Shown piece by piece: positions 6,168 through 23,337 of a stretch of DNA of 32,945 nt. Numbering within the stretch: position 1 is the first letter of the stretch; each line of letters begins with the position of its first letter. A model generated the notes under the pieces. It did no database searches, was not told where the DNA came from, and saw only the letters and a program-made list of their open reading frames with translations. The stretch spans positions 1-32,945 of the forward strand of contig PDZV01000040.1 of assembly GCA_002753135.1 (NCBI GenBank). The letters run 5' to 3'. Source of the DNA: Magnetococcales bacterium WMHbinv6 (GTDB lineage: Bacteria; Pseudomonadota; Magnetococcia; Magnetococcales; Magnetaquicoccaceae). The position numbers and the translations under genes are program-made.

Positions 6168-6259
6168 TGCTGCGTCCTCGTCTTGGTTGATCCATGAACT
6201 TGGGACACAGCATACAGAGCTTTTCAGGGTGGGACGTTCGGTTGTGGTGCGGTCCTTTA

Positions 6260-6309
6260 AAGAACAAATTCGTTCTTGGTTTCCACCGTGCAAGAACAAA
6301 TTTGTTCTT
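6260..6309. promoter_or_regulatory. Pair of 18-bp palindromic operators
   Basis: Two copies of AAGAACAAATTYGTTCTT lie at 6260-6277 (one mismatched position) and 6292-6309 (perfect palindrome). Their centres are 32 bp apart, close to three helical turns, so bound dimers would sit on the same DNA face. They lie 90-140 bp upstream of the ATG at 6167 in an otherwise gene-free leader. The half-site GAAC with a 6-base spacer differs from the known LexA boxes I can recall. A phage-type repressor, possibly the XRE/sigma-4 protein encoded next door, is a candidate binder. Confidence 0.7.
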
Positions 6310-6325
6310 TCTGATTGCAACGTAT

Positions 6326-6511: not shown

Positions 6512-6552
6512 CAAAAACAACATGGGCAATTCACGGAGAGTGAATTGCCCAT
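6512..6552 (-). terminator. Intrinsic terminator of the ATPase/kinase/regulator operon
   Basis: A 13-bp perfect stem (6522-6534 with 6540-6552) closes a GGAGA loop. On the minus strand it is followed by a T-rich run (GTTGTTTTTG). It lies about 40 bases past the stop of the XRE/sigma-4 gene and marks the end of that transcript. The rest of the gap up to 6168 holds only the operators and possible promoter. Confidence 0.88.
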
Positions 6553-6589: not shown

Positions 6590-7216
6590 TCAGCACCAAA
6601 TTCCTCCTATATCCAACTGGTAGACATCGTGGTAACATTCAATCTCTGGTACGCAAATCGGCTTTCCTGCTTGCATCTGGGAAATCACTGTCTTGACCTT
6701 ATAGATCGCCTTCTTCAGCAACATGATTGCCCGTGTCCGAGAAATTTTCATTTCCTGCGCAACATCCTCATAGTGCAAATTGTCCAACCTCATTGCCAAT
6801 GCCTGCGACTCTCTTTCCGACAAATACTTCATTGCGCGGTTCAGCATGAGACGCTTATCAACCATCTCCTCTATCTCTTCTTCTGTCGTTGGACCACGCA
6901 TCTGGCCAAGAAAACAGGCCAGTTGATCGGTTGACATGGGAACCTGAATTCGGCTCTTTTCCACTGCAGCATTGAGTTGGTGCTCGTTGAATAAATCCAT
7001 CGGTAGGCAATCCAGTACTTCTGCGATTTTTAAGACATCGTCCAGCCATTCACCGTATCGGTCCAATGGTGAAATCCTCATGTTAACAATGCCATAGATA
7101 GTCTTCCTGCTGCCTCCAGTTTTACGCGCCAATTCGGCAACTGACTCAATTCCAATCTTTTTCATCGCCGTGGCAATTCGACCATTGCGTACTCTTATCT
7201 CAACCTCATAGTCCAT
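6590..7216 (-). CDS. XRE-type HTH / sigma-70 region 4-like regulator
   Basis: The protein has 208 residues. An XRE-like helix-turn-helix lies at about residues 23-46 (SVAELARKTGGSRKTIYGIVN), continuing into a helix that ends LPMDLFNEHQL. A linker follows. A second DNA-binding unit at about residues 131-175 (YLSERESQALAMRLDNLHYE, then DVAQEMKISRTRAIMLLKKAI) matches sigma-70 region 4, which normally contacts the -35 element. No sigma region 2 is present, so it is not a full sigma factor. It may be an activator or repressor that mimics sigma-4. GAGGTGAG precedes the ATG. The gene starts three bases after the response-regulator stop and closes the operon. Confidence 0.85.
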   Translation of the reverse strand: MDYEVEIRVRNGRIATAMKKIGIESVAELARKTGGSRKTIYGIVNMRISPLDRYGEWLDDVLKIAEVLDCLPMDLFNEHQLNAAVEKSRIQVPMSTDQLACFLGQMRGPTTEEEIEEMVDKRLMLNRAMKYLSERESQALAMRLDNLHYEDVAQEMKISRTRAIMLLKKAIYKVKTVISQMQAGKPICVPEIECYHDVYQLDIGGIWC

Positions 7217-7219
7217 GGC

Positions 7220-8134
7220 TCACCTCACCGATCTTATTCGAGATGACAGCATTACTATCTCTTTCAGCCTATGCTGTGCCAGCTGCTCATGGTCAATCTG
7301 CGCAACCTCAATCGCAGGGTTAATACGATAACGACCTTGCTTGTCATTCTCGTAAAAAACCAAACCATTTGGCAAAAACATCTGGAGAGTGGAGTTCAGG
7401 TTTGATATCCCTTTAAATCCAGCAGTATCTGTTGAACCAAGATCAACCTTGTGAACCCAACCATGACCATTCATTACCCGTGCCGCTACAAGCTTCATGA
7501 GCAAAATCAGCTTGAAATCAGGCAAATTGAACACACGCCCATTAACAACAATATTCGTTCTTTTCCCGTGATTCTCCCCTATGATCGACAACTGCACTTT
7601 CGAATGGGTACCGGTAGACTGACTCGCATCCTCATCCTGTTTCTGCCTCGCCGTAGCCATCACCATAAAACAATCCTGGTGCGTATTCCGATGACTCCTC
7701 CTGAAACAATTTTCTATCTTTTCCACAAAGACAGAATCTTGCCCGTTTAACGGTTTGGCAATGAAATCGTTTGCTCCATACTGCAGACACCATACTGCAT
7801 CCACCATCTCTTTTGCGAATCCACTCATTACCACGATTTGCAAACAATGATGGTCTGCTTTGTTACGCGCAGGAAAACGATCCCTTATGATCCGCAAAAG
7901 GGTTTTCCCATATTCAATCCTCGGCATATTTCCATTCGCGTCTAACAAGATTTGGAGGTCAAGCAGCACACAACAAAATTCTCCGGCATCCAACAACGCC
8001 ATCGCCTCTTCTTGCGATGGAACCGCCACCATCTGATGCCCAAGCGACTGGAGCCTTTCCGCCAGTTCTTTGACCACATTCGGATCATCTTCAACTACCA
8101 GAACAATATGCCGGTTCTTCTTGGAATGTATCAT
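7220..8134 (-). CDS. Response regulator with divergent winged-helix output domain
   Basis: This 304-residue protein has an N-terminal receiver domain with all key residues: acidic pocket E15/D16/D17, phospho-acceptor D59, S104 and K127. The C-terminal part (residues 175-285) reads VNGRVFNLPDFKLILLMKLV, followed by NLNSTLQMF and a final GRYRINP. This matches the spacing of an OmpR-type winged helix in a diverged form. AGGAGG lies upstream of the ATG. The first four bases overlap the kinase stop, so the kinase and regulator should be made in fixed ratio. The target promoter is unknown. Two insertions (around residues 63-75 and 88-97) make the receiver longer than usual. Confidence 0.88.
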   Translation of the reverse strand: MIHSKKNRHIVLVVEDDPNVVKELAERLQSLGHQMVAVPSQEEAMALLDAGEFCCVLLDLQILLDANGNMPRIEYGKTLLRIIRDRFPARNKADHHCLQIVVMSGFAKEMVDAVWCLQYGANDFIAKPLNGQDSVFVEKIENCFRRSHRNTHQDCFMVMATARQKQDEDASQSTGTHSKVQLSIIGENHGKRTNIVVNGRVFNLPDFKLILLMKLVAARVMNGHGWVHKVDLGSTDTAGFKGISNLNSTLQMFLPNGLVFYENDKQGRYRINPAIEVAQIDHEQLAQHRLKEIVMLSSRIRSVR

Positions 8135-9264
8135 CTTGCTTCCTCCTGCCCTGTTGGTAACACGATTCTTACCGTTGCCCCCTGGCCAGGATTACTCTCC
8201 AAGGAAATCATCCCACGGTGATCCGATTCGATGATCTTTTGGGCAAGAGTCAAACCGACTCCAGTCCCCCCATCCTTATTGGTTGCAAACAACAGAAACG
8301 CCTCTTCGACCATCTCCTTGGACATCCCACACCCACAGTCCATGATGGCCAATTGAATGCGACTGCCATTGTAAAGCGATGCCGTCACCGTAATGGACGG
8401 CGTTTGTTCGGAATTGGCATACGCCTCCACACTGTTCTGGATGATGTTGGTCAGTGCCTGAAGCATCATGTGCCGGTTGACCTCCACGGTAATAGATGGG
8501 TCGATCTGGATGTCAGCCTGTAACAGGCTATTCTCTTCCCTGCGGTCACGAACCAAGTGAACCGCCTCCTCCACCAACGAACTGAGGCTTTCCACCTGAA
8601 ACTCTCGATCCATCTCCCGGGTCAATGAGCGCAACGCATCCAAAACGGAATACAAAAATTTGGTCCGATTCACAGCCTCCTGGACTTTCCCCGCCAAATC
8701 CTCACGGTTGATCCGCTTCCCCTCCTTCAAGGCGATATCAATTTTCCGCAGGGTGGAGTTCAGCGGATAGAGAGTCCGAGTCATCTCGTGGTACATCTCC
8801 TTGACAAATTGGGCATTCAGCTTTTCGGAAACACGCTTTGCCGCATTGCGGGCCATCACCCCGTGTTTGTTTTCAAGATCCTCCAGCCACTGCAGCATGC
8901 GGTCTCCGTGTTGATCTTTCATAGTATCCGCCTTGGACAACTCGGAACGCCGTGCAAGGGTCCGTTTGACCGCGTTGCGCACCAAAACATGGACGTCCTT
9001 TTCCAAGATCGCAATAATCTCGGTGAAGGTCTCGTGTCGAAGGTGCAGCACGGTGTGCGCCAGCGCTTTCCTGACCTCCCATTTGTGGTTTCTGGCGTGA
9101 ACGGCAAGCTGCTTGCCGATCAGGGCATGAACGACAGGGTCTGGTCCAGCCTGCTGCAATACCAAAGTAGCCTGTTCCACCCCCTCCCGAACAAACCCCC
9201 ACTGCATCGACTCGGGCGATTCCAACAAACCCATCATTCCTGTTTCCGGTACAAAAATATTCAT
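8131..9264 (-). CDS. Soluble histidine kinase with HEAT-like N-terminal domain
   Basis: This 377-residue protein has no membrane segment, so it is a cytoplasmic sensor. Residues 30-145 contain repeated helix pairs of HEAT type (KWEVRKALAHTVLHL, then DVHVLVRNAVKRTLARRS, then HGVMARNAAKRV). A dimerisation/phosphotransfer segment has H159 in YHEMTRTLYPL. The ATPase domain shows the N box (NIIQNSVEAY, N277), G1 (DCGCGM, residues 309-314) and G2 (GGTGVGLTL, residues 332-340). The known reaction is ATP-dependent His autophosphorylation and transfer to the receiver Asp of the next gene. It starts two bases after the ATPase stop. The HEAT region probably receives a signal from the ATPase partner; that is an inference. 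Confidence 0.88.
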   Translation of the reverse strand: MNIFVPETGMMGLLESPESMQWGFVREGVEQATLVLQQAGPDPVVHALIGKQLAVHARNHKWEVRKALAHTVLHLRHETFTEIIAILEKDVHVLVRNAVKRTLARRSELSKADTMKDQHGDRMLQWLEDLENKHGVMARNAAKRVSEKLNAQFVKEMYHEMTRTLYPLNSTLRKIDIALKEGKRINREDLAGKVQEAVNRTKFLYSVLDALRSLTREMDREFQVESLSSLVEEAVHLVRDRREENSLLQADIQIDPSITVEVNRHMMLQALTNIIQNSVEAYANSEQTPSITVTASLYNGSRIQLAIMDCGCGMSKEMVEEAFLLFATNKDGGTGVGLTLAQKIIESDHRGMISLESNPGQGATVRIVLPTGQEEAR

Positions 9265-9266
9265 GG

Positions 9267-11162
9267 TCAGTGTCCATATTTGATTTTACGTTGCAAAAAG
9301 GCATCTCTGCCACCTTCCAACAGGAGTTCGATCCGCTCTTTGACGTCATCGACCGTACCCTGCTGGACAATGCTCCCCCGCCGACCGTCCGAGGCCAGCA
9401 CGAACACCCGCTCGGCCTCCCCCAATACGGGAATGTTGGGGTTGTGAGTAACAAAAATGAGCTGCCGATGCGCCTTGGCCGCACGCACGCTCTTGACGAT
9501 CGTCTCAAAAATGAAGGCGTTATCCAGATTGTCCTCCGGCTGATCAATGAGCAGCGGACGATCACTTTCCAACAACAAGATGGGCAGAATGGTCGTGCAA
9601 CGTTGGCCGGTCGACAAAAAGGCGGCGGACTTGTAGTCCCGGCCATCCAGCAACTCAATGCAAGGCAGATCATCCATCTCAACGGTCTCCAGCTTGATGA
9701 GCGTCTGGGAAGCGGCCAACCGCTCGATGATCGTGATCGCTCTCCCCGTGTCGATCCCGATACTCTCTGCCAGACGGGCCGCATCCTTCTGCTTCACGCA
9801 GATGGTCAACTCTTCCGCCGAAATATGCTGCACAATTTTCTCGACCAAACTGGCATACTTGAGACCGGAGCCCTTGAGCCCCTCCGACAACAGATCAACC
9901 AAAGCCTGCCGATTGCCAAACTGGCTCACCGTCACCCGTATGGTGGGGTACAACGCCTTGCTCAAACGCTCCGCAATCGCATTGCGCAAACGAAAGCGTT
10001 CATCACGCAGCAGCGTCAACCGGGAGGTCAGTTGCCAGTGTTTGTTTGACTTGTCGGCATACTGTTTCTTCAACTCCTCCAACTGACGATTGGCGTCATT
10101 CACCTCCACCTGCCGCTTTTGCAGGTTGATGCGTTCGGCAAGCCGCCCCTGCTCTTCCTGGGTTTTGGCCAACAACTCGCGAAAGGCCTGTTCCTGCACG
10201 GCATGCCGCCCCTCCAGTTCCTGCGCCGCCAGACTCAGTGCAGCCAAATTGTTCTGGCACTCCTGTTGAAACCACGGCACGCTGGTCTGAAACTCTGCAA
10301 GGAATTTTTGAATCCGCTCAACCAGAACCCGAAACAGCTCCTCATTCGGCCCGGCAACCACATTTGCGCCGACATAGCCAACCAAACGTTGGGCCAGACC
10401 GTCGACATAGCTTTGAAACTTGCCGCCCAAAGTGCCAAACTCAGCCGTCAAGCTGGCAATGGCCTTCTTTTCCAGATCACGCAGAACCTTGTGTGAATGG
10501 GCCTGTTGGATCAAATGGGCATCCGGCCCGGCGTCCTGCTTCTGAAACCCTTTCAGCTTCTCTTCAATGGCCGGACCTTCCGAAACGGTCTCTGCCAGAT
10601 CTGCCATCCGCCGCTCATACTCCGACAATTCGCCTGCACTGTAGGAGACATCGCGGAGCATCTGGCTGATCCCCATGTTGATCTCACGGATCTTTTCCTC
10701 TTCAAACTGGTCGATCAGCTTCAGTTGGAACTCTGGATCGGTGGCAATTTGCTCAATCTCGTTCTGGCTGTAGACATCGGCCCGAAATATCCGGTCCCTC
10801 TCCAGCGAAATGGTCGTGGCAACCCCCTTCTCATCCAACACCTGACACTCATCGTTCCACGGTCGCTCCGCTGTGTAGCGCATGCCATGCCGCGTCTCGA
10901 AGTGCAATCGCACCCGCCCGTTGGCCAGGTTGTTCTGCACCACCGAATGCGCCCTGGAACGAACCGATCGTTTGGGATCCGGCATCAATCCCAATACGTG
11001 GCGGACCAACTCCAAAATGGTGGTCTTGCCCGTCCCCCGCCCACCGATGATGCAGTTGAGGCCCTGAGAAAACTCAAGACGCGCCCCCTCCAAAAAACCG
11101 CCGGTCACCTCGGCACCCAAAATGGTGTGGTTTGTCTTCGACAACTGTTCTGTGCTACCCAT
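9267..11162 (-). CDS. SMC/ABC-type ATPase with coiled coil
   Basis: This 631-residue protein has Walker A GGRGTGKTT at residues 40-48, a long central Gln/Glu-rich coiled coil (about residues 205-400), and ABC signature STGQRC at about 517. Walker B is LLIDQPEDNLDN, and the His switch is VTHNPNIPVLGEAE. The DQPEDNLDN/THNPNIPV pattern resembles ATPases of the TrlF/SbcC-like group, which occur in several defence systems. No nuclease domain is fused. The ATG at 11162 has AGGAG six bases upstream; an ATG 45 codons earlier lacks a ribosome site and would cross the repeat upstream. It is the first gene of the four-gene operon and probably the damage or invader sensor; that role is inferred. Confidence 0.9.
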   Translation of the reverse strand: MGSTEQLSKTNHTILGAEVTGGFLEGARLEFSQGLNCIIGGRGTGKTTILELVRHVLGLMPDPKRSVRSRAHSVVQNNLANGRVRLHFETRHGMRYTAERPWNDECQVLDEKGVATTISLERDRIFRADVYSQNEIEQIATDPEFQLKLIDQFEEEKIREINMGISQMLRDVSYSAGELSEYERRMADLAETVSEGPAIEEKLKGFQKQDAGPDAHLIQQAHSHKVLRDLEKKAIASLTAEFGTLGGKFQSYVDGLAQRLVGYVGANVVAGPNEELFRVLVERIQKFLAEFQTSVPWFQQECQNNLAALSLAAQELEGRHAVQEQAFRELLAKTQEEQGRLAERINLQKRQVEVNDANRQLEELKKQYADKSNKHWQLTSRLTLLRDERFRLRNAIAERLSKALYPTIRVTVSQFGNRQALVDLLSEGLKGSGLKYASLVEKIVQHISAEELTICVKQKDAARLAESIGIDTGRAITIIERLAASQTLIKLETVEMDDLPCIELLDGRDYKSAAFLSTGQRCTTILPILLLESDRPLLIDQPEDNLDNAFIFETIVKSVRAAKAHRQLIFVTHNPNIPVLGEAERVFVLASDGRRGSIVQQGTVDDVKERIELLLEGGRDAFLQRKIKYGH

Positions 11163-11252
11163 GTCTGTCTCCTGAATGTTCTGGTTGAACGTGATTCCAA
11201 TAAAAACATTGACTTTCCCGCCTGATCGCCCGCGACTGGAAATATTATGCAA

Positions 11253-11280
11253 CACCTTGTGTCTCACCAGATGATAGACA
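11253..11280 (+). repeat. 28-bp direct repeat, copy 1 (candidate operator of the ATPase operon)
   Basis: The core TGTGTCTCACCAGATGATA is shared exactly with the second copy at 11357-11384, and 26 of 28 positions agree overall. This copy lies about 90 bp upstream of the ATPase ATG. It directly precedes, on the minus strand, a CATAAT hexamer that could be a -10 box, so a bound protein would overlap the -35 region. Confidence 0.75.
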
Positions 11281-11356
11281 TAAAATAAAATTTTCATCTG
11301 ATCGCATTTTTTTTCAAAAGGACACGAGCAGCGTCAACTCAGGTTGGATTATAAAT

Positions 11357-11384
11357 CACCATGTGTCTCACCAGATGATATACA
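11357..11384 (+). repeat. 28-bp direct repeat, copy 2 (candidate operator of the WYL gene)
   Basis: This is the second copy of the 28-bp sequence, 104 bp from the first and in the same orientation. It is 50 bp upstream of the WYL-regulator ATG and just after a TATAAA hexamer on the plus strand. Its outer ends, TGTGT and ACACA, form short inverted arms. An opposite-strand TCATCTG at 11294-11300 between the two copies resembles half of the core. Confidence 0.75.
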
Positions 11385-11433
11385 CACGAACTTTTTTTTG
11401 ACCGTTTCATTTTTTTCCGGGGTAAAACAAGGC

Positions 11434-12408
11434 ATGGACCGCACCGAACGCTTCTACCGGATTGACCAACTCCTGCAGGAAAAACAGGTGGTTCCCATTG
11501 CCACCTTCCTGAAGGAACTTGGAATTTCAAAACCAACATTTATGCGAGATCTTGAGTATTTGCGTGACAGGTTGAACGCTCCCATCGTCTGGGATGTGGT
11601 TCAACGTGGGTACCGATATGAAACGGTACAGGAAATGGCCGGCCCCCGTTTTGAATTGCCCGGTTTGTGGTTCAACGCTTCAGAAATTCACGCCATCTTG
11701 ACCATGGAACACCTGCTGGCCAGTTTGCAACCTGGCCTCCTGGCACCCCACGTCACCCCTTTGCGCACCCGGTTGCGGATGCTGTTGGATAGTGGCAGCC
11801 ACAGTGTCGACGAGGTGGTCGCCCGTATTCGGGTGCTGCCCTTGGGCGGTCGGAAAGTGGAACAACCGCTTTTCGAGACGGTCGCCAATGCCTTGCTGTC
11901 GAGGCAGATCCTGCAGGTGCAGCATCTGAACCGAGGACGGGGGGAACTTCTGGAAAGGGAGGTATCGCCGCAACGACTCGTGTTTTACCGAGACAACTGG
12001 TACCTGGACGCTTGGTGCCACATGCGTGAGGCCATCCGGAGCTTCGCCCTGGATGCCATACAGAAAGCAACTCCCACCATGAAACAGGCCATTGATCTAT
12101 CCGATGATGAATTGGATCGCCATCTGAAAGCGGGATACGGCATTTTCAGCGGCGCCAATACCAGAACGGCGGTCATCCGTTTTTCCAAGGAAAGATCCCG
12201 CTGGGTGGCCAACGAGTCGTGGCATCCTGCACAAAGAGGGGAATTTGATTCCGACGGTCGATGGATACTCTCCTGCCCCTACTCCAACGACATCGAACTG
12301 ATCATGGACATCATGCGCTACGGTCCAGACGCAGAAGTCCTGGAACCACCTGAACTGCGGGCGAAAATACAAGACAGACTCCGCAAAGCGTTGTCATGCT
12401 ACGCATAA
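11434..12408 (+). CDS. WYL-domain transcriptional regulator with N-terminal winged HTH
   Basis: This 324-residue protein opens with a DeoR/HTH_11-type winged helix (residues 1-60; FLKELGISKPTFMRDLEYLR). Its WYL domain has the signature W189-Y190-L191 in RDNWYLDAWC, and a C-terminal extension follows (WCX type). WYL regulators bind nucleic-acid or nucleotide ligands, and several (BrxR, CapW) repress anti-phage operons. Start 11434 gives the standard N-terminus MDRTERFYRI; the longer frame would run through the 28-bp repeat. No strong ribosome site is visible. The gene is divergent from the ATPase operon and shares its control region, so it most likely regulates that operon and itself. Confidence 0.92.
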   Translation: MDRTERFYRIDQLLQEKQVVPIATFLKELGISKPTFMRDLEYLRDRLNAPIVWDVVQRGYRYETVQEMAGPRFELPGLWFNASEIHAILTMEHLLASLQPGLLAPHVTPLRTRLRMLLDSGSHSVDEVVARIRVLPLGGRKVEQPLFETVANALLSRQILQVQHLNRGRGELLEREVSPQRLVFYRDNWYLDAWCHMREAIRSFALDAIQKATPTMKQAIDLSDDELDRHLKAGYGIFSGANTRTAVIRFSKERSRWVANESWHPAQRGEFDSDGRWILSCPYSNDIELIMDIMRYGPDAEVLEPPELRAKIQDRLRKALSCYA

Positions 12409-12448
12409 ATTGTAATTGAGACCATCGATTGAAAAAGGAAAACACACC

Positions 12449-13201
12449 ATGCTCGCTCTGGTTTCACCAGCCAAAACCCTGGACACATCGCCATCTCAAC
12501 TGGGTATGCAGGGAACCCAACCAGCATTTTTGGATGATGCCGTCCAACTGGCCAGACAGATGAAAAAACTGAACGAGGAAGAACTGGGAAAGCTGCTCAG
12601 CATCAGTCCAGCTTTGGCCGGGCTCAATGCAGCGAGATTTCAAGCATTTTCAGATGATCCTGCATGTCCGGTGGGAAAATACGCTGCCGAAATGTACCGG
12701 GGAGACACCTATGAGGGGCTAAATGTGGACTCGTGGAGTGCAGATGATTGGCAAATCGCTCAACAATCGCTCCGTATCCTCTCCGGCCTATACGGGGTGC
12801 TCCGTCCTCTGGACCTGATCCAACCCTACCGACTGGAGATGAGTTCACGCCTTGCCACAAACAGAGGTCGGGATCTGTACGCCTTCTGGGGAAATCGTTT
12901 GTCTGAACATCTCGCTGCCTTGGCAATGGACCGAACAGTGGTCAATCTGGCTTCCGAGGAATACATCAAGGCTGTCCGATCTGTACCAATGATTACGCCT
13001 GTGTTCAAAGAACTGCGTCAGGGAAAGCTGCAGATGATCGGATTGATGGCCAAACGCGCCCGTGGTGCCATGGCCAACTTCATGATCAAACAGCGTCTGA
13101 CTGCTCCGAAGCAACTTTGTGGATTCATTGAAGGGGGCTACCATTTCCGCGAGAATCTCTCCAACGATACCCAGTGGCTGTTTGTCCGCGAATCCTCCTA
13201 A
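12449..13201 (+). CDS. yaaA: YaaA family protein (DUF328, peroxide-stress protein)
   Basis: This 250-residue protein opens with the family hallmark LVSPAKTLD. It continues with conserved blocks: a Sxxlxxl...LSGLYGVLRPLDLIQPYRLEM-type stretch at about residues 110-130, then NLASEEYIKA and FKELRQGKLQ. E. coli YaaA (258 residues) lowers free iron and limits oxidative DNA damage, and members can bind unusual DNA structures. The ATG at 12449 has AAAGGAAAA upstream. The gene lies 40 bp after the WYL regulator on the same strand and is probably co-transcribed with it. It normally lives in core chromosome; here it sits among accessory genes. Confidence 0.95.
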   Translation: MLALVSPAKTLDTSPSQLGMQGTQPAFLDDAVQLARQMKKLNEEELGKLLSISPALAGLNAARFQAFSDDPACPVGKYAAEMYRGDTYEGLNVDSWSADDWQIAQQSLRILSGLYGVLRPLDLIQPYRLEMSSRLATNRGRDLYAFWGNRLSEHLAALAMDRTVVNLASEEYIKAVRSVPMITPVFKELRQGKLQMIGLMAKRARGAMANFMIKQRLTAPKQLCGFIEGGYHFRENLSNDTQWLFVRESS

Positions 13202-13254
13202 AATCAAACCGATCGGAGCAGGTGCGACCGCCAATGCGTGCTTCCGGTTTGATT
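13202..13254. other. Inverted repeat between two convergent genes
   Basis: AATCAAACCG at 13202-13211 and CGGTTTGATT at 13245-13254 form a perfect 10-bp stem with a 33-base loop. It sits just after the yaaA stop and before the convergent Sel1 gene end. There is no T-run, so it is not a standard terminator, but it may act as a bidirectional barrier or mRNA end. Confidence 0.4.
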
Positions 13255-13282
13255 GATGACGCGGACAGTTGTCCACGTGACG

Positions 13283-13636
13283 TCACTCCTCTGATGGCTT
13301 CAGTTTCAACAGGTCCAATTGTCGTTGCGCCGTATGATCCCCCTGCGTGGCGGCCCGGCGCAACCAATACCTCGCTTTGCCATCCTCACCGCCCTGCAAG
13401 AACACCATCCCCATAATCGTCTGTGCCCCTGCATGACATCTCTCCATTGCCATCAGGAACCACTTGGTTGCCTCCACGTCGTCCTGCTGAACTCCAACCC
13501 CCCGATGGTATAACCCGCCCAGCGTCGTCATCGCAGAAACATTGCCAGCCTCCGCAGCAGCACGGATGGCATCAAGATCAACTGCGTATGCATCCGTTGG
13601 CAATAGGAAGACGAGGAGCAGCAGTAGGCGAATCAC
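13283..13636 (-). CDS. Secreted Sel1-repeat protein
   Basis: This is a 117-residue protein with a signal peptide (MIRLLLLLVFLLPTDAYA, cleavage near residue 18). Two to three Sel1-like helical repeats follow (AAEAGNVSAMTTLGGLYHRG and DGKARYWLRRAATQGD). Sel1 repeats mediate protein contacts, and the signal peptide puts it in the periplasm. The start is GTG at 13636, nine bases after the previous stop, so it is probably translated by coupling. It is the third gene of a nuclease-led operon and may act on or with the exported nuclease. That is inferred from position. Confidence 0.85.
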   Translation of the reverse strand: MIRLLLLLVFLLPTDAYAVDLDAIRAAAEAGNVSAMTTLGGLYHRGVGVQQDDVEATKWFLMAMERCHAGAQTIMGMVFLQGGEDGKARYWLRRAATQGDHTAQRQLDLLKLKPSEE

Positions 13637-13645
13637 GCTACTGAC

Positions 13646-13900
13646 TCAAGCAAAAGGGTTCGGAACGTCATCCACCACAGGGGGCTCTGTCTGAATCACG
13701 TCGGGCAATTTTGCCTCCGACTCCAACACCCGGATCACCTCATCAAAAAACAACCTCAACTTGCGCGCATGGGCACGTCCAACCATGTCCTTGGTGATGT
13801 CAATATCGCCGTAGATCGCAATCCGGTCCACATGGTTCTCAATTGTCAATCCGCCAATCGTCTCGGATTGTGACTCGTTGGCAAAGGGTGAAATGCTCAT
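13646..13900 (-). CDS. Small unknown protein between a nuclease gene and a Sel1 gene
   Basis: The 84-residue product starts MSISPFANES and contains a strand-rich middle (GGLTIENHVDRIAIYGDIDI), a basic helix (DMVGRAHARKLRLFFDEVIR) and an acidic/proline tail ending DDVPNPFA. It has no signal peptide, unlike both neighbours. AAGGA lies six bases upstream of the ATG at 13900, and that ATG shares its first base with the nuclease stop. I cannot assign a family. A cytoplasmic regulator or immunity-type partner for the nuclease is possible but unsupported. Confidence 0.75.
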   Translation of the reverse strand: MSISPFANESQSETIGGLTIENHVDRIAIYGDIDITKDMVGRAHARKLRLFFDEVIRVLESEAKLPDVIQTEPPVVDDVPNPFA

Positions 13901-14691
13901 CACTTGTCCTTGTGTTGGTGGGATTTTGGACCAGGATCCGGCAAAGCCATCGCTCGGTCCTTGATTGCCTGCGGCAGAGAAGGAAAAACATCCAGTCCCG
14001 TCATCTCACGAAGTTCCGACAATGAGATCGTGCGCCAATCGTCGCCAGGCGCATTATTGGTGAGATAGACGCCTGCGGCCTGACGTTTGGGACTGTAGAC
14101 TGCCTTGAAGATGGATGTCGGAATAAAAACACGCCCGTTCAACCTCTGGATGCTCGCTCCTTGAAAAACAGGCCCAGTGACGACAAACACCTCCCCCTCG
14201 GCCTGCGTCAGTTTCCTCACTGCCTTCTCGATATGCATCCAAACACCGCGATTGTTCTCTGGTGCCTGAGGAACCATGTTGGCCATGCTGAATGATTCGG
14301 CTTGGCTTTGCTCATCCGGCATATCTCCGGAAGGAGCCATATGCCCACGATCAAAGCCGGACTGCTTATAATCGTCCAGGGTTGCCCGATCGCCGACAGG
14401 TAATCGCTCTTCCTCATGGAACAGGTTGATGCGCTCTTGTCCTTTGGCCTCCTTGATGTGAGCCTTTGTCAGATGCTCGGCAGACCATAACGGTGTGCGC
14501 GTTACCCCACTGTGCAGAACCGCAAACTGCCGAAAGCACAGAGGTATCGTCTTTGGGGCAAGTTTTGGATTCGTGATGTCGGGTGCAGAACCACCGACAA
14601 ACTGGTCGGGACACTCTGTTTTGGACGCGTGCGCGGTGCCAAACGCAAGAACAACAGTCAATGCAACGGCAAAAATGGCCATCTTTTTCAT
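13900..14691 (-). CDS. Exported DNA/RNA non-specific endonuclease (beta-beta-alpha metal family)
   Basis: The protein has 263 residues with a signal peptide (residues 1-22, cleaved after AHA). It has the active-site block FDRGHMAPSGD (general base H117) and the metal-binding Asn block NMVPQAPENNRGVW (N146/N147). These are diagnostic of the Serratia/NucA family, which cuts DNA and RNA without sequence preference. A possible disulfide pair sits in the N-terminal part (C27, C52). The ATG at 14691 is preferred since it starts the signal peptide. It is the first gene of a three-gene operon. Its role could be nutrient scavenging, transfer-related DNA degradation or competition. Confidence 0.93.
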   Translation of the reverse strand: MKKMAIFAVALTVVLAFGTAHASKTECPDQFVGGSAPDITNPKLAPKTIPLCFRQFAVLHSGVTRTPLWSAEHLTKAHIKEAKGQERINLFHEEERLPVGDRATLDDYKQSGFDRGHMAPSGDMPDEQSQAESFSMANMVPQAPENNRGVWMHIEKAVRKLTQAEGEVFVVTGPVFQGASIQRLNGRVFIPTSIFKAVYSPKRQAAGVYLTNNAPGDDWRTISLSELREMTGLDVFPSLPQAIKDRAMALPDPGPKSHQHKDK

Positions 14692-14882
14692 GGTGCTGGA
14701 TTCCCCCCACTGTTCTATCTCTGTCGTGAACGCCAAGCTCTGAACTCAATGCCCAGGGTAACAAATCCATGAATGGGCGCAAGGCATTCCGTCCTTAACG
14801 AATATCCAACTCACACCACTGCATAGCCCGTTTTTACGGCTCAACCTGGAACACCCACACTGTCGCAAGGTCCATATCCAGA

Positions 14883-16481: not shown

Positions 16482-16667
16482 TTGATCGCCACCACCACCC
16501 ACCCCACCAACATGACCGCCGACGAACGCCTGAACGAAGTCGCCGCCATCATCGCCACCGGCCTCCGCCGCCTCGGAGAAAAACAAAAAACGGAGAATAT
16601 TCCAGTTGATAACTCGCCAACCAAATGCCCTTATGGTCGAAAAACACCTAAAGGAGAAAGGCGATGA
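16482..16667 (+). CDS. Small protein of the DUF2924/recombinase cassette
   Basis: This 61-residue protein contains MTADERLNEVAAIIATGLRRL, a short helical motif I associate with the small ORF that regularly precedes DUF2924 and serine-recombinase genes in alphaproteobacterial elements. A TTG start at 16482 has AGGAG eight bases upstream. An ATG at 16512 has no ribosome site but would start exactly at the conserved motif. The stop overlaps the DUF2924 start by four bases. Its function is unknown. Confidence 0.75.
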   Translation: MIATTTHPTNMTADERLNEVAAIIATGLRRLGEKQKTENIPVDNSPTKCPYGRKTPKGERR

Positions 16668-17107
16668 AAATCGGAGTGATCAAACAAGTGGCGGCCTTGC
16701 AAAGCATGACAGCCGCCGAGTTGAGAAATGCCTGGAAGACCTACTTTGACACAGAGCCACCCCTCTTCAACCGAACATTCTTGATGAACCGGCTGGCCTA
16801 CCGGATACAGGATCTGGCCCTGGGCGGACTGTCAGCACAAACGGAAAAGAAAATGATGCGGATGGAGGTCGAGGAGGATGCGCCACCGGAAAAACACAAG
16901 GCACCAGAAGGACGATTCCTGGCCGGCACCAAACTGGTGCGGGAGTGGAAGGGGACACAACACAGCTGCGTGGTACTGGCCGATGGCGGGTTCGAGTATC
17001 AGGGACGGCGGTTCCGGAGTTTGTCGGCGGTGGCCAATGCCATTACCGGCACAAAGTGGAACGGGCTGGTGTTCTTTAACCTGAAAAAACAAGGAGAAAA
17101 AGCGTGA
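16664..17107 (+). CDS. DUF2924 family protein
   Basis: This 147-residue protein has an N-terminal helical part (LQSMTAAELRNAWKTYFDTE and FLMNRLAYRIQDLALGG). Its C-terminal part is strand-rich and DNA-binding-like: GTKLVREWKGTQHSCVVLAD, then YQGRRFRSLSAVANAITGTKWNG. The second part matches the DUF2924 pattern. Members sit directly upstream of serine recombinases in phages and integrative elements and may aid recombination. AAAGGAG precedes the ATG. The stop overlaps the recombinase GTG by four bases. Confidence 0.9.
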   Translation: MKIGVIKQVAALQSMTAAELRNAWKTYFDTEPPLFNRTFLMNRLAYRIQDLALGGLSAQTEKKMMRMEVEEDAPPEKHKAPEGRFLAGTKLVREWKGTQHSCVVLADGGFEYQGRRFRSLSAVANAITGTKWNGLVFFNLKKQGEKA

Positions 17108-18414
17108 CAAAACAAACAATAACCTTTAAAACACGCTGCGCCATCTACACCCGAAAGTCCACCGAAGAGGGTTTGGAGATGGACTTCAATTCATTGGATG
17201 CGCAACGGGAAGCCTGTGAATCCTACATCGCCAGCCAAAAGGCCGAGGGATGGCTCCTGGTGGCCGATCGCTACGACGACGGCGGATTCTCCGGCGGCAA
17301 CCTGGAACGGCCTGCCCTGAAACGTCTCCTGAAAGACATTGAGGCCGGCAAGATCAACCTGGTCGTGATGTATAAAATCGACCGCCTTACCCGCTCACTG
17401 ATGGATTTCGCCAAGCTGGTGGAGGTGTTCGAGAAACACAACGTCACCTTCGCCAGCGTCACCCAGTCGTTCAACACTACCACTTCCATGGGACGGCTCA
17501 CCCTGAACATGCTCCTCTCCTTCGCGCAGTATGAACGCGAGATTTCAGCCGAACGCATCAGAGACAAAGTCGCTGCGTCCAAAAAGAAAGGCATGTGGAT
17601 GGGTGGACACCCCCCTTTCGGATATGACGTCCGAGACCGCAAACTGGTGATCAATGAATCCGAAGCCGAAACAGTACGCTGGCTCTTCCAACGGTTCATG
17701 GAATGCCGGTCTGCCACCCAGATGGTCAGAGAACTGACCGAAAAAGGTGTGCATGGAAAACGCGGTAACCCCCTGGACAAACCATCGGTCTATCGGTTGC
17801 TCAAAAACCACCTGTTCATCGGCAAGGTCGCATTTCAGGGCAAGGTGTACGAGGGTGAGCATGATGGTATCGTCGATCCAGCCCTCTGGGAACAGGTCAA
17901 CGCCATCATGGCATCAAACAACTTTTATCAACCAGAGCGATCCCGCGCACAAACCACGTCATTGCTCATGGGCATCATCCGCTGCCAGCACTGCAACATG
18001 GCCATGTCGCCAACCTTCTCTTGCAAGGCAGGGAAACGATACCACTACTACATCTGCAAGGGAGCAGAAAATCGCGGACGCGAAACCTGCCCACTGCGCA
18101 CCGTCCCTGCCGGTGAGATTGAGGCGGTGGCAATCAACCAAGTCCGCACCATGTTGCAGTCCCCAGAGCTGGTGGTCAAGACCTGGCGCGCCAGCGATGG
18201 CATCAGCGAACGGGATGTGACTGAGGCCCTGCGGCGACTGGATCCGGTTTGGGAGGAACTCTTCCCCGTTGAACAGCAACGACTGGTGCAACTGCTCATC
18301 TCCAGGCTGGATGTGGCGCAGGGCGGGGTGAAAGTGCATTTACGCAGTGCAGGGCTGGATACTTTGGCTCACGAGTTGAGCGATCTGTGGAAAAGCAAGG
18401 AGGTGGTAGCATGA
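17104..18414 (+). CDS. Serine recombinase (resolvase/invertase fold with recombinase and zinc-ribbon domains)
   Basis: This 436-residue protein has catalytic Ser19 in AIYTRKSTEEG. The resolvase domain (residues 10-155) contains DRLTRS and the family block AQYEREISAERIRDK. A recombinase domain (about residues 160-275; PPFGYD...) follows, then a zinc ribbon (C-x2-C in CQHCNMAM, then CKGAENRGRETC). It cuts and rejoins DNA via a phosphoserine link, normally for integration and excision. A GTG start overlaps the DUF2924 stop, and AGGAG lies upstream. It is shorter than typical large serine integrases (450-600 residues), with only a short tail after the ribbon. Confidence 0.95.
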   Translation: MTKQTITFKTRCAIYTRKSTEEGLEMDFNSLDAQREACESYIASQKAEGWLLVADRYDDGGFSGGNLERPALKRLLKDIEAGKINLVVMYKIDRLTRSLMDFAKLVEVFEKHNVTFASVTQSFNTTTSMGRLTLNMLLSFAQYEREISAERIRDKVAASKKKGMWMGGHPPFGYDVRDRKLVINESEAETVRWLFQRFMECRSATQMVRELTEKGVHGKRGNPLDKPSVYRLLKNHLFIGKVAFQGKVYEGEHDGIVDPALWEQVNAIMASNNFYQPERSRAQTTSLLMGIIRCQHCNMAMSPTFSCKAGKRYHYYICKGAENRGRETCPLRTVPAGEIEAVAINQVRTMLQSPELVVKTWRASDGISERDVTEALRRLDPVWEELFPVEQQRLVQLLISRLDVAQGGVKVHLRSAGLDTLAHELSDLWKSKEVVA

Positions 18415-19536: not shown

Positions 19537-22500
19537 TCAATTCCAGTTGGACCAAGACAGTTTCCCCTCAGCGATCCGTCCTACTACGGTCTTCGTCGCG
19601 AGTTCATAAACCGCGCCAACTTGGTGCTTCCGCAACCCCATAAAAGTTTTTACCTCAGCAATCAGGGCCAGATGTTTTCCCGTCGGGGAAAGAACGGCAG
19701 CCTCCACACGGCATTTGCCGCGATTCAAAACTGCTGCCACTTGGGTTGCGGCGCTTTCCCATAATGGGGTTTCATCTGCCGTTCGCCGGATGCCGTCCAA
19801 CAACTCGGCCAATGGTTTGAGGCGTGGCGTTCCCTCAGCAGCAAACTGAAAATGAATGGGCAAGCGCGTCAGGGCGCAGTCACGCATATCATTCGGGTGC
19901 GCCTTGAGGTCACTCCAGAAACAGGTCCGCAATTCAACCGGCGCGCAATACTTCCCAGTAGATGACCTCGTGGCAACGCTTTCAAGAATGCGTACCTGGG
20001 AGACGCTGCTGGTGACGAGAAGCTGCTTCAAAACATGTTTGCCCGTTGCGGCGCAACCCTCCAATTCTCCCAGCAGGACGTGTTTGCCGCTGACTTCGCA
20101 ATGCCGGAGCACACCAAACCGAACCCGCTTTCCCGTGACCTCGCATTGCTCGGATTCCGCGAGGGCAATTGGCTGATGAGTTTCGTGGCATATAACGAAT
20201 TCCGCCTTGTGTCCCGATCTCCCGGAAACAGCGGAGCGCACATGTTCATCGATGCGGTACGGCTGCCCAGAAATCTCGCTGACAGCGGATTCGACATGGA
20301 GCAACATGGCGCCGGTGAACATGCAGCGGACAAACTGGTCTGGTTCAGCACGCTTGCCGCTAACCGTGGAGGTCTTGAGAAGGGAGGAGGCAATCAACTT
20401 CCCGGTGGCCGCCGACGTCTCAACCTCATCTTTCAGCACGAGCTTGCCGCTGAGTGCGCAAACTACAGCAAATATCGGCAGCGCGGGGCGCCCACTTACT
20501 CCAGATTTCACAAGCAGATGGCGAAGCGCGTAGGCACCGGATAACTCACACCTCGTTAAGCATGACGCGGGGACCGTTCGGGCGGACAGCGTGCAAAACC
20601 CCATGTCCTGCGCATGAGACACTTTTTTGTTGTGAGGAATAACCCCGACAATACTCTCGTAGATGTCATCTGTGTCAAACGCATATCGCGCTCGCATAAT
20701 GATCTCGCGGTATGAATGTCCGGTTAGCCCGACCAGCGTCATGGCCAAACGAGGTGTGAATTCGTCAAACAGCTTTTTTCGTTTGCGCTCGTCTTTTCCT
20801 GCACCCCTAACCTCTTGCTCACGCCGCTCCAGGTAGAAGCGGGAAAACTCCGCTATGGCATCGTCCTGACCTGCGGCAACCTTCAATCTGTCGGGGTCGA
20901 GGCCCATGATTGCGGGGTCTTCGACGGTTTTCGGCAACGGGGCCAGACCGGGCCGACCAAGCACCTTTTTGTGGTCATGCGAGCTGCAAGGCACCTCCAC
21001 AAGGCGCTCGTAGCTGTCGTGCGCAACGGTCGCCCGCACACGCAGGATGGCATTGCCGCCGAAGTACCGCTTCACGTCAGTAATTTCGATTGCTGTTTGC
21101 CGCCCGCCAAAACGCGCAACCCATTCCCTCGCAATGGTCTCTGCCGTCCTGGCTGGTTCATCATCAAGATCTCCAACTTCGTGGATGCCGGTTGCCGTGA
21201 CACGGTCTATGAGCCTTTGGAATGCAGCTGATCCAGGAGCATAGAGGATACTCTTAATGGAGGTATTCGGAGTGTCTTCAAAACGAACATGTTCGCGGCG
21301 GCCGTATTCCTCGGCAAGATAAAGACTGTCCGGCTTTGGACGTAGCGTAACACCCAGCATCCTCAATGCGGCAATAGCGAAGTCCTTCGCATCCATTGAG
21401 CGTGTGACGTCGGGCAGGCTTGGCGTGCGAGGCCCGACATAGGAGGCCCCATCCATGTTGCCGAGCATAGCATCGATGTTCGCTTGCTCTCGTTCGAGTT
21501 CTTCCTTAGCTTCTGCAATGTTTTGTTCTTGGATGCGTGTTTCTTTCTCAACGTCCTTTCCGGCCAGAGCCGCCAGGACCAACGAAAGGATACGGTCTTC
21601 AAAGCTTGTTGTGACGTCTCCATCGCTATCACCAATGTCCGAACCTTGCAGGAGAGCTTCTATATCGCCGATCGCATGGGAGGCCATCTGGAGCTTTTCC
21701 ATCAGGCGGCCGACAATGTATTCCTCGAAAGTGCCGCGCAGCATAACGTTGAAGATGCTGACATTGGCGTAGTCGGAGGCAAGCCGCTGGATACGCCCGA
21801 TCCGCTGCTCCACGATCATGGGGTTCCACGGCAGATCATAATTGACAAGGACGTTGGCAACCTGAAGATTCACACCCTCGGAACCGGCTTCGGTTGACAC
21901 GATCACCCGGTATCCGGGAGGATTCTGGCGGAAACGGGCTACGGTCTCCTGATTGCGAGCGCCTGAATCGCCGTTAATGATGCCAACTTTCAATCCGTGC
22001 GCATCAAGAAATGCTTGGATTGTGGTCTGAGTCTCCCGACGGCCTGTGAACACCACGAGCCGCCAACTATCAGGTTTTTCCTTTTTAAGCTGTTCGATGA
22101 GACGACCAAGGCCGTGGAGTTTGGCACTGGGGGGCATTTTACTCACGATGTCCTTTACCGTCGCCGCCAACTCCTGGGGAACAGTTCTGTTTCTCGCCAT
22201 GTTAACAAGTTGCGCCATGAGCGCTTCCGGGCTGCTTGTGAGGGCCTGAAGAATGGAAATCTGCGCGAGCCTATTCAGCTTCTGGATGGGCTTGGCGATG
22301 GTTTCTATCAGTTTCAGCTCAGAGGGCGTCGGATCGACATTGTGCATCTGTACGACCCGGTCAGGGAAATAGAGCTTGGCGTCCCCTCGACGCACGCGCG
22401 ACATGTACCCATAAACGATGGACCGGAATTCGTCCTGGGCTTCGGTCTTCAACTGGCGCGCCTGATTCTTTCTGTCCGCGATAAATCGGTGAAAATACAT

Positions 22501-23262
22501 ACCCTCGGATCCGAAGGGGTTTTCGTGACCACGTGCGACGGCAAGCAAATCAACGAGCGAATAGATGTCCCACAAGCGGTTCTGAATGGGTGTCGCGGTC
22601 AACATCAGGACAAAACGGAACCGGCGATCTTCAAGTGCCTTTCGGAAACGTTTCGCCACCTGCGGCGTTGCTTGGACGCCGTAGAGATTGCGGAGTTTGT
22701 GAGCCTCATCAAGAATCAGCATCTGAAAACGATCATCGGGGATATCGTCGAGGTATAGCCGAGCCGAATTGTAGGTCGTAATAACGGCTCCTGCCTCATC
22801 GTGATCCGCAGTGATGAGTGCTTTGCCTGTAGCTACCTCCGCCGGAAAATCAAACTTCGTCTCCAGTTCTTCTTTCCATTGCGGGCCGAGCAGCTTTGGC
22901 GCCACGATAAGGACTTTCGATAAGCGCGAGCGGGAGAGGAGTTCGCTGATAATGAGGCCTGCGCTAATCGTTTTGCCAAGACCAACGTCGTCGGCAAGTA
23001 AGGTCACGGGTAGACGTCGGCAAAATGTTATGAGGTTCGAGACTTGGTGATGAAAAGGCGTTAGATGATCGCGCCAGCGCTGTGCGGATTTGAAGTCATC
23101 CGAGCTTTCGATCACGATGGGATCAGTCAATGCCCATTCGAGTCCCGCACGGTAAACCGCAAATTCTTCCGACGAGCGTTTGCGAGTAAGTATCTTTGAA
23201 CGGAACTCGATGGCCGTGTCGGCGCCTAAATCTGGCTGCGTTTGACGCTGACCCATGTTCAT
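19537..23262 (-). CDS. SNF2-family helicase with C-terminal repeat domain
   Basis: This 1241-residue protein has SNF2 motif I DDVGLGKTISAG (GKT at about residues 96-98), II LILDEAHKLRN (about 185-188), III LMLTATPIQN and VI EQRIGRIQRLAS, so it should translocate on double-stranded DNA. A coiled coil (KETRIQEQNIAEAKEELERE) and a mixed domain follow. Residues 890-1140 contain about 16 copies of a 13-17-residue repeat with consensus C-x-(V/L)-(S/T)-G-(K/R)-x-(V/L)-L. It ends in a small domain with TGKHLALIAEVKTFMGL. The ATG at 23262 has AGGTG nine bases upstream; in-frame GTG 23334 (AGGAG six bases upstream) or TTG 23337 are alternatives. It stands alone in its transcription unit. Confidence 0.92.
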   Translation of the reverse strand: MNMGQRQTQPDLGADTAIEFRSKILTRKRSSEEFAVYRAGLEWALTDPIVIESSDDFKSAQRWRDHLTPFHHQVSNLITFCRRLPVTLLADDVGLGKTISAGLIISELLSRSRLSKVLIVAPKLLGPQWKEELETKFDFPAEVATGKALITADHDEAGAVITTYNSARLYLDDIPDDRFQMLILDEAHKLRNLYGVQATPQVAKRFRKALEDRRFRFVLMLTATPIQNRLWDIYSLVDLLAVARGHENPFGSEGMYFHRFIADRKNQARQLKTEAQDEFRSIVYGYMSRVRRGDAKLYFPDRVVQMHNVDPTPSELKLIETIAKPIQKLNRLAQISILQALTSSPEALMAQLVNMARNRTVPQELAATVKDIVSKMPPSAKLHGLGRLIEQLKKEKPDSWRLVVFTGRRETQTTIQAFLDAHGLKVGIINGDSGARNQETVARFRQNPPGYRVIVSTEAGSEGVNLQVANVLVNYDLPWNPMIVEQRIGRIQRLASDYANVSIFNVMLRGTFEEYIVGRLMEKLQMASHAIGDIEALLQGSDIGDSDGDVTTSFEDRILSLVLAALAGKDVEKETRIQEQNIAEAKEELEREQANIDAMLGNMDGASYVGPRTPSLPDVTRSMDAKDFAIAALRMLGVTLRPKPDSLYLAEEYGRREHVRFEDTPNTSIKSILYAPGSAAFQRLIDRVTATGIHEVGDLDDEPARTAETIAREWVARFGGRQTAIEITDVKRYFGGNAILRVRATVAHDSYERLVEVPCSSHDHKKVLGRPGLAPLPKTVEDPAIMGLDPDRLKVAAGQDDAIAEFSRFYLERREQEVRGAGKDERKRKKLFDEFTPRLAMTLVGLTGHSYREIIMRARYAFDTDDIYESIVGVIPHNKKVSHAQDMGFCTLSARTVPASCLTRCELSGAYALRHLLVKSGVSGRPALPIFAVVCALSGKLVLKDEVETSAATGKLIASSLLKTSTVSGKRAEPDQFVRCMFTGAMLLHVESAVSEISGQPYRIDEHVRSAVSGRSGHKAEFVICHETHQPIALAESEQCEVTGKRVRFGVLRHCEVSGKHVLLGELEGCAATGKHVLKQLLVTSSVSQVRILESVATRSSTGKYCAPVELRTCFWSDLKAHPNDMRDCALTRLPIHFQFAAEGTPRLKPLAELLDGIRRTADETPLWESAATQVAAVLNRGKCRVEAAVLSPTGKHLALIAEVKTFMGLRKHQVGAVYELATKTVVGRIAEGKLSWSNWN
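19845..20600 (-). repeat. Coding repeats in the SNF2 helicase C-terminus
   Basis: This segment encodes about 16 degenerate repeats of 13-17 residues. Clear examples are CALSGKLVLKDEVETS, CEVTGKRVRFGVLRH, CEVSGKHVLLGELEG and CAATGKHVLKQLLVTS. The Cys is kept in about half the units and the (S/T)-G pair in most. DNA identity between units is low, so the array is old. Confidence 0.85.
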
Positions 23263-23337
23263 GTGCTGGTTCACCTGGAATTGATCAAATAGGGGTTGGT
23301 TACCCAACCCGGAAAATTTATCACCCTCCTCCACCAA

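Follow-up and report, generated by a model that had tools for sequence, protein, structure and literature searches.

An ATPase, histidine kinase and response regulator gene triad at the control region of a Magnetococcales prophage

Genes for an SMC/ABC-type ATPase, a histidine kinase and a response regulator follow one another in the same order and on the same strand in 112 fetched loci, which come from six phyla or more and include 28 viral records (six of the 112 are re-fetched loci, leaving 106 non-redundant triads, a few of them near-copies). A gene order that is kept in more than 100 loci is far beyond chance. The triad described here lies in a window, i.e. the whole stretch of DNA that was analysed, which is an entire contig of 32,945 bases from a 3.84-Mb genome. 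Its locus is the control region of a serine-integrase prophage, situated between the integrase and the early genes; the contig ends inside the element, and structural phage genes were seen in the flanks of triads in viral records. A description of the triad was not found in the literature searched, with the 2020 classification of ABC ATPases (NAR gkaa726) outside that search.

Gene arrangement and distribution of the triad

In the initial annotation, four tightly packed minus-strand genes and a divergent WYL gene were reported. All five were found at these positions of the window, and a Pfam search matched the domain calls made for them (AAA_23/SMC_N in the case of the ATPase):

9267..11162, minus strand: SMC/ABC-type ATPase of 631 aa, the TrlF/Ppl ATPase half without the PHP nuclease (NF045780 match, motifs)
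8131..9264, minus strand: soluble histidine kinase with a helical, HEAT-like N-terminus and phospho-acceptor His159 (HATPase_c, E 3.6e-19; structure model)
7220..8134, minus strand: response regulator with a receiver domain (Asp59) and an OmpR-like winged helix (Response_reg, E 1.6e-12; structure model)
6590..7216, minus strand: protein with an XRE-type HTH and sigma-70 region 4, an optional fourth gene (HTH_26, Sigma70_r4)
11434..12408, plus strand: WYL-WCX transcription regulator, divergent (WYL, E 2.1e-19; WCX, E 1.1e-18)

Two bases separate the ATPase stop (9267) from the kinase start (9264), the kinase stop (8131) and the regulator start (8134) overlap by four bases, and a gap of three bases lies between the regulator stop (7220) and the XRE/sigma-4 start (7216). 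The start of the ATPase was corrected from 11297 to the ATG at 11162, a start that is common to the relative at locus L070. The WYL protein most likely starts at the ATG at 11434, because a repeated operator sits within the longer open reading frame (ORF).

A search with the C-terminus of the regulator across the class, which comprises 48 genomes of a single order, identified 15 matches in 11 genomes, and in the fetched Magnetococcales neighbourhoods all contigs of sufficient length show ATPase, kinase and regulator in a single order. The ATPase-kinase-receiver order, which the initial annotation had proposed to look for across genomes, was also found in IMG/VR records and in the majority of 80 bacterial loci (Alphaproteobacteria, Myxococcota, Planctomycetota, Verrucomicrobiota, Lentisphaerota, Gemmatimonadota and further groups). 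Exceptions are few and include the ATPases of Nannocystis and a sister Myxococcales (no kinase found), the long-branch loci L180 and L183, and contig ends. In almost all of the 112 loci the triad genes overlap or are closely spaced, and the pairwise identities of all three proteins show rank correlations of 0.69-0.77 (0.77 for ATPase and kinase, 0.69 for ATPase and regulator). The four-gene set did not hold up as a unit: besides the window, the XRE/sigma-4 gene is present only at L070, L074 and L083 and is thus optional, while most Magnetococcales loci exhibit a receiver-less sigma-54 activator gene instead of or beside it.

The ATPase, its partners and related systems

The ATPase matched the TrlF profile NF045780 with an E-value of 4.8e-90, a match that covers profile positions 286-944 only and residues 55-675 of the longer ORF. 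With 303.6 bits the score is under the cut-off of 350, and the protein falls short of the curated cut-offs of both TrlF/Ppl models (NF045780, NF042955). Within the ATPase half, homology to the PHP-SMC anti-phage proteins TrlF and Ppl extends over approximately 620 residues. Whereas TrlF and Ppl carry a fused PHP nuclease, the window ATPase has a separate kinase and regulator as partners instead. Only about ten residues precede its ATPase domain and the sequence further upstream is occupied by the promoter and the WYL gene, leaving the fused N-terminal nuclease absent. The idea of a phosphorelay in place of a fused nuclease was thereby strengthened, as the TrlF match lacks PHP and the kinase and regulator genes come after the ATPase gene in nearly every case. 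The DQPEDNLDN and THNPNIPV pattern recognised in the initial annotation is present, and 25 of 25 relatives retain it unchanged; the Walker A, signature and Walker B motifs are conserved in them as well. A weak SbcC-like match of the ATPase (phrog_77) was also observed. An ABC/SMC ATPase core is shared with Lamassu LmuB, MADS Mad3, PtuA and GajA; membership in these systems was rejected on account of weak core matches and of an operon that contains none of their partner genes. Ppl itself is kept inactive by bound NTP and senses NTP depletion and 3'-OH ends (PMC12904381).

Among the 48 Magnetococcales genomes, every full-length short ATPase is part of a triad, and the contigs with long ATPases (ORFs mostly of 840-1111 aa, one truncated at 629) are without a regulator match. 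The fused viral relatives, all 17 of which are found without adjoining kinase and regulator, occupy one side of an ATPase tree that was built by a quick method and has long branches (support 96). Judged from this pattern of short ATPases only in triads and fused ones without a kinase, a single ATPase family seems to have either the PHP nuclease or the kinase-regulator pair as its partner.

The two-component pair is complete, as had been claimed, and its catalytic residues are intact: H-box, ATP-binding boxes and receiver residues are all in place and invariant in relatives, with H159, N277, D309, G311, G335 and G337 of the kinase retained in 27/27 sequences and D16, D59 and K127 of the regulator (acceptor Asp, acidic pocket, Lys) in 22/22. 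From these residues, the phosphorelay appears intact. The structure model of the kinase combines an all-helical N-terminus with a standard catalytic core and a fold match to HK853/WalK. The assignment of the N-terminus to HEAT repeats was upheld in part, namely by WEVR and VR-AA-TL motifs and the helical model, while a Pfam HEAT match was not obtained. For the regulator, Pfam reports Response_reg only and the structure model (pLDDT 85.8) adds an OmpR-like winged helix-turn-helix (wHTH), the best full-length PDB matches being VanR, DrrB, MtrA and KdpE. This predicted C-terminal winged helix makes transcription, and not a toxin, the most likely output of the triad. ATPase, kinase and regulator yielded no match to a toxic or nuclease effector domain; for the regulator, Pfam search and structure model agreed on this. 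In several Planctomycetota regulators, a further C-terminal tail reads like a second helix-turn-helix. When the regulator was used as query against plasmids and phages, only receiver-domain matches were obtained.

Detocs also employs a histidine kinase and receiver proteins that serve an intracellular signal, and its three genes code for the kinase and two receiver proteins. In contrast, the window exhibits an ATPase, a kinase and a single regulator without a second receiver protein, the third protein of the triad being the SMC-type ATPase. The best-described Detocs effector is an ATP-cleaving PNP (PMC11249213), whereas the window regulator bears a DNA-binding wHTH and no such effector.

Prophage context and candidate operators

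The triad and WYL genes are flanked by two groups of phage genes:

872..6320, minus strand: phage early block (phrog_7024-like, phrog_2480, Sak4 annealing ATPase, DUF669 SSB-like, Cas4-type exonuclease, ParB-like/DNA methylase)
16664..18414, plus strand: DUF2924 protein (E 4.5e-49) and large serine recombinase, the integrase of the element (Resolvase/Recombinase/Zn_ribbon_recom)

A YaaA gene, a DNA/RNA non-specific endonuclease and an AAA_25 gene are located between the triad/WYL side and DUF2924, and beyond the serine recombinase come core genes (penicillin-binding protein, PilM, DHQ synthase). The first genes of the early block occur in the same order in genomes G022 and G026. G022 is the nearest relative (ATPase 98% identical) and shares the layout of the window; its triad contig also carries a Rha antirepressor and an M15 endolysin. 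Among the complete triads of IMG/VR, 23 of 28 have replication or integration phage genes in the fetched stretch. Many viral triads adjoin replication genes, either heading that block or standing divergent from it, and terminase, portal, head protease and tape-measure genes flank them at a distance (phage genes were called by PHROG scans; a single Pfam terminase family matched only 1 of 32 records). CI/LexA-type prophage switches likewise lie between the integrase and the early replication genes and have their operators beside the latter. However, these switches use RecA-driven cleavage, whereas a phosphorelay is proposed as the signal of the window triad. No S24 peptidase repressor was found in the phage records searched, and since control records were equally without S24, its loss was dropped as proof of a switch.

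Repeated sequences were identified on both sides of the operon (no strand assigned):

11348..11384: candidate WYL operator copy 1, TGTGTCTCACCAGATGATATACA, a 37-bp repeat with 86% identity to copy 2
11244..11280: candidate WYL operator copy 2, TGTGTCTCACCAGATGATAGACA, direct-repeat partner of copy 1
6522..6552: perfect 13-bp inverted repeat, ATGGGCAATTCAC-N5-GTGAATTGCCCAT, 3' of the fourth gene
6291..6310: putative palindromic operator, CAAGAACAAATTTGTTCTTT, spaced 32 bp from the one in the next line and the other of two genome-wide copies
6259..6278: putative palindromic operator, AAAGAACAAATTCGTTCTTG, one of only two copies genome-wide within one mismatch

The 37-bp direct repeat flanks the WYL/ATPase promoter and its core, GTGTCTCACCAGATGATA, is absent elsewhere in the window genome. 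This core is present twice each in G000, G022 and G024, solely in the WYL/ATPase promoter, and as one weak copy in G026; it was not found in G044. In G022 and G024 the pair is conserved at a distance of 100-104 bp, and G046 exhibits three copies of a cleaner palindrome, TGTCTATC-N7-GATAGACA. WYL orthologues of 72-96% identity adjoin four other Magnetococcales triads, and loci with an unrelated WYL protein contained no copy of the WYL-promoter operator. The promoter repeat is best read as the operator of the WYL protein. Control of the operon by WYL, as initially suggested, gained support from a repeated operator that is confined to promoters of loci with the same WYL protein. The WYL regulators BrxR and CapW control known defence operons (BREX and CBASS, respectively), in which a divergent WYL gene and inverted-repeat operators in the shared promoter are found as in the window; there, BREX or CBASS genes are the targets, while the window WYL gene adjoins a phosphorelay triad instead. 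Single-stranded DNA is the signal for WYL proteins of the PafBC/DriD type and, by analogy, the input may be of the same kind here.

Palindromes of the consensus CAAGANC-N6-GNTCTTG are located directly downstream of the operon and ahead of the early genes. Apart from the two window copies, each of which has one mismatch, the window genome contains none. Across 18 whole genomes, 18 exact palindromes fall at six triad loci (eight in G024, three each in G022 and G037, two in G046 and one each in G044 and G015) and five elsewhere, about the number expected by chance, and these whole-genome counts rule out dispersed REP-like elements. Helically phased sites occur at nine triad loci, with spacings of 21, 31-32 or 41-43 bp that correspond to whole helical turns. 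The array precedes either an early phage gene or a sigma-54 activator gene, with or without the XRE/sigma-4 gene. Its presence whatever the accessory or next gene points to the triad regulator as the common candidate binder, though OmpR-type regulators often favour direct repeats, which counts against binding of palindromes by the regulator. No array was present at the Magnetococcales loci L076, L077, L078, L081 and L082, and searches beyond the Magnetococcales revealed no comparable array; with all lineages taken together, palindromes were not enriched behind the regulator (median rank 0.55), and six loci of other lineages had no repeats in common. The arms of the 13-bp inverted repeat recur at L070 and L075 with different spacers, and this repeat is a candidate terminator or operator.

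Proposed mechanism, alternatives and implications

We give an even chance to a model in which the triad is an intracellular sensor of DNA or nucleotide state that is wired to a His-Asp phosphorelay and controls adjacent mobile-element or defence genes, with a switch for prophage induction or early genes as its most likely role in the window. Extrapolating from Ppl, the TrlF/Ppl-type ATPase would respond to an abnormal state, e.g. DNA ends or low NTP, and would, by the same analogy, drive the kinase rather than license a nuclease. It would engage the helical N-terminus of the kinase and trigger autophosphorylation on His159, from which the phosphate would be passed on to Asp59 of the regulator; the residues for both steps are conserved. 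The winged helix of the regulator, as the presumed binder, would then occupy the phased CAAGAAC palindromes and turn on the next transcription unit, i.e. the early recombination genes of the serine-integrase prophage in the window or the sigma-54 activator gene in relatives. The divergent WYL protein would set the level of the triad via the paired operator, presumably by repression. The module may also control adjoining restriction or BREX genes in some Planctomycetota and Verrucomicrobiota.

At some loci of these two phyla, the same-strand upstream neighbours of the triad code for type III restriction and an AAA_13 ATPase (L119), BrxL (L129), Mod/Res (L139), HsdM (L127) or a ResIII helicase and an OLD-like ATPase (L148), and type I restriction genes are located nearby at L131 and L135. 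They favour an interpretation of the triad as an anti-phage or anti-plasmid defence module of prophages and defence islands, whose ATPase would detect invading or damaged DNA and whose phosphorelay would switch on a defence or suicide gene close by, or back up restriction. The relationship of the ATPase to the anti-phage protein Ppl and the control of known defence operons by BrxR and CapW point in the same direction, and a prophage control region is also a plausible site for defence cargo. However, the output is a DNA-binding domain and none of the three proteins contains a toxic or nuclease effector domain, the great majority of complete viral triads lie by replication or integration genes, and a restriction marker was detected in the fetched stretch of just 9 of 65 non-Magnetococcales genome loci, a count based on narrow markers and many short contigs. 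As to location in defence islands, the loci are divided: a minority of Planctomycetota and Verrucomicrobiota loci lie by restriction or BREX genes, and many others have a prophage context. Overall, the defence interpretation is a serious alternative, though less likely than the sensor model.

The array itself could be a hairpin-forming or replication-origin signal instead of an operator, with the SbcC/SMC-like ATPase sensing extruded palindromes of replicating element DNA and reporting via the phosphorelay. This scenario fits the SbcC-like match and palindromes that adjoin recombination genes; it is improbable in light of the 21/32-bp helical phasing, which favours same-face protein binding on duplex DNA, and of arrays that precede sigma-54 activator genes without an adjoining replication gene (L072, L073, L083). 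A conserved housekeeping stress two-component system with an incidental ATPase neighbour, for which the ordinary folds of the kinase and regulator domains could be cited, is very improbable given the patchy distribution (found in 11 of 48 genomes, with as many as three copies in one genome), the mobile context and the strict ATPase linkage across phyla.

There is a fair chance that the triad, as a variant on the Ppl/TrlF ATPase theme, constitutes a new class of switch. More tentatively, and with doubt prevailing, it may represent a widespread undescribed signalling class in which the role of intracellular DNA/NTP sensor for a two-component system falls to an SMC/Ppl-type ATPase. Such a class would provide temperate phages with an SOS-independent induction switch and bacteria with a means of tuning restriction or BREX loci, and it would have originated from a partner exchange within one ATPase family, between a fused PHP nuclease and a phosphorelay. 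Two-component systems are usually taken as sensors of the outside world. If the model is true, the state of DNA or nucleotides would be relayed directly to transcription, bypassing RecA/LexA, temperate phages would gain a second way of deciding on induction, and one portable module would link phage control and bacterial defence.

Genes and repeats around the triad

Between the divergent WYL gene and the serine integrase of the window lie two genes that resemble cargo of the element. Further features were located at the operon end, beyond the integrase and at a Planctomycetota triad locus (L164):

window 6522-6552, inverted repeat GGCAAYTCAC / GTGARTTGCC
window 12416-14736, YaaA peroxide-stress gene and DNA/RNA non-specific endonuclease gene
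window 19537-23337, SNF2-type helicase (1266 aa), resembling BrxHI/DrmD/HmaA
L164 6541-9417, 959-aa protein with a HEAT_2 match, directly upstream of the triad

The repeat follows the regulator or the fourth gene and occupies the equivalent position in two further triad loci, L070 and L075; across all three, its arms are kept while the spacer varies from 5 to about 90 bases. Relatives of the helicase adjoin two Magnetococcus-type triads (L077 and L081), and another is contained in a viral record (L046).

Triad copies and ATPases with no partner found beside them

The single-contig genome G037 (4.7 Mb) carries three triad copies, of which L077 and L081 are nearly identical; other inserted genes accompany the copies. 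Nested within the triad clade are the ATPase of Nannocystis and a related one from Myxococcales (L175, L176 and L181), beside which no kinase or regulator was found, the L181 sequence stopping at a contig end.

Sigma-54 activators and the fourth gene

Receiver-less sigma-54 activators adjoin the triad at four loci:

L072 9943-11223
L075 1366-2742
L077 12815-13993, with a different repeat family upstream
L083 10599-11825

In L070, the XRE/sigma-4 gene is overlapped by an apparent leftover fragment of such an activator, which suggests a replacement.
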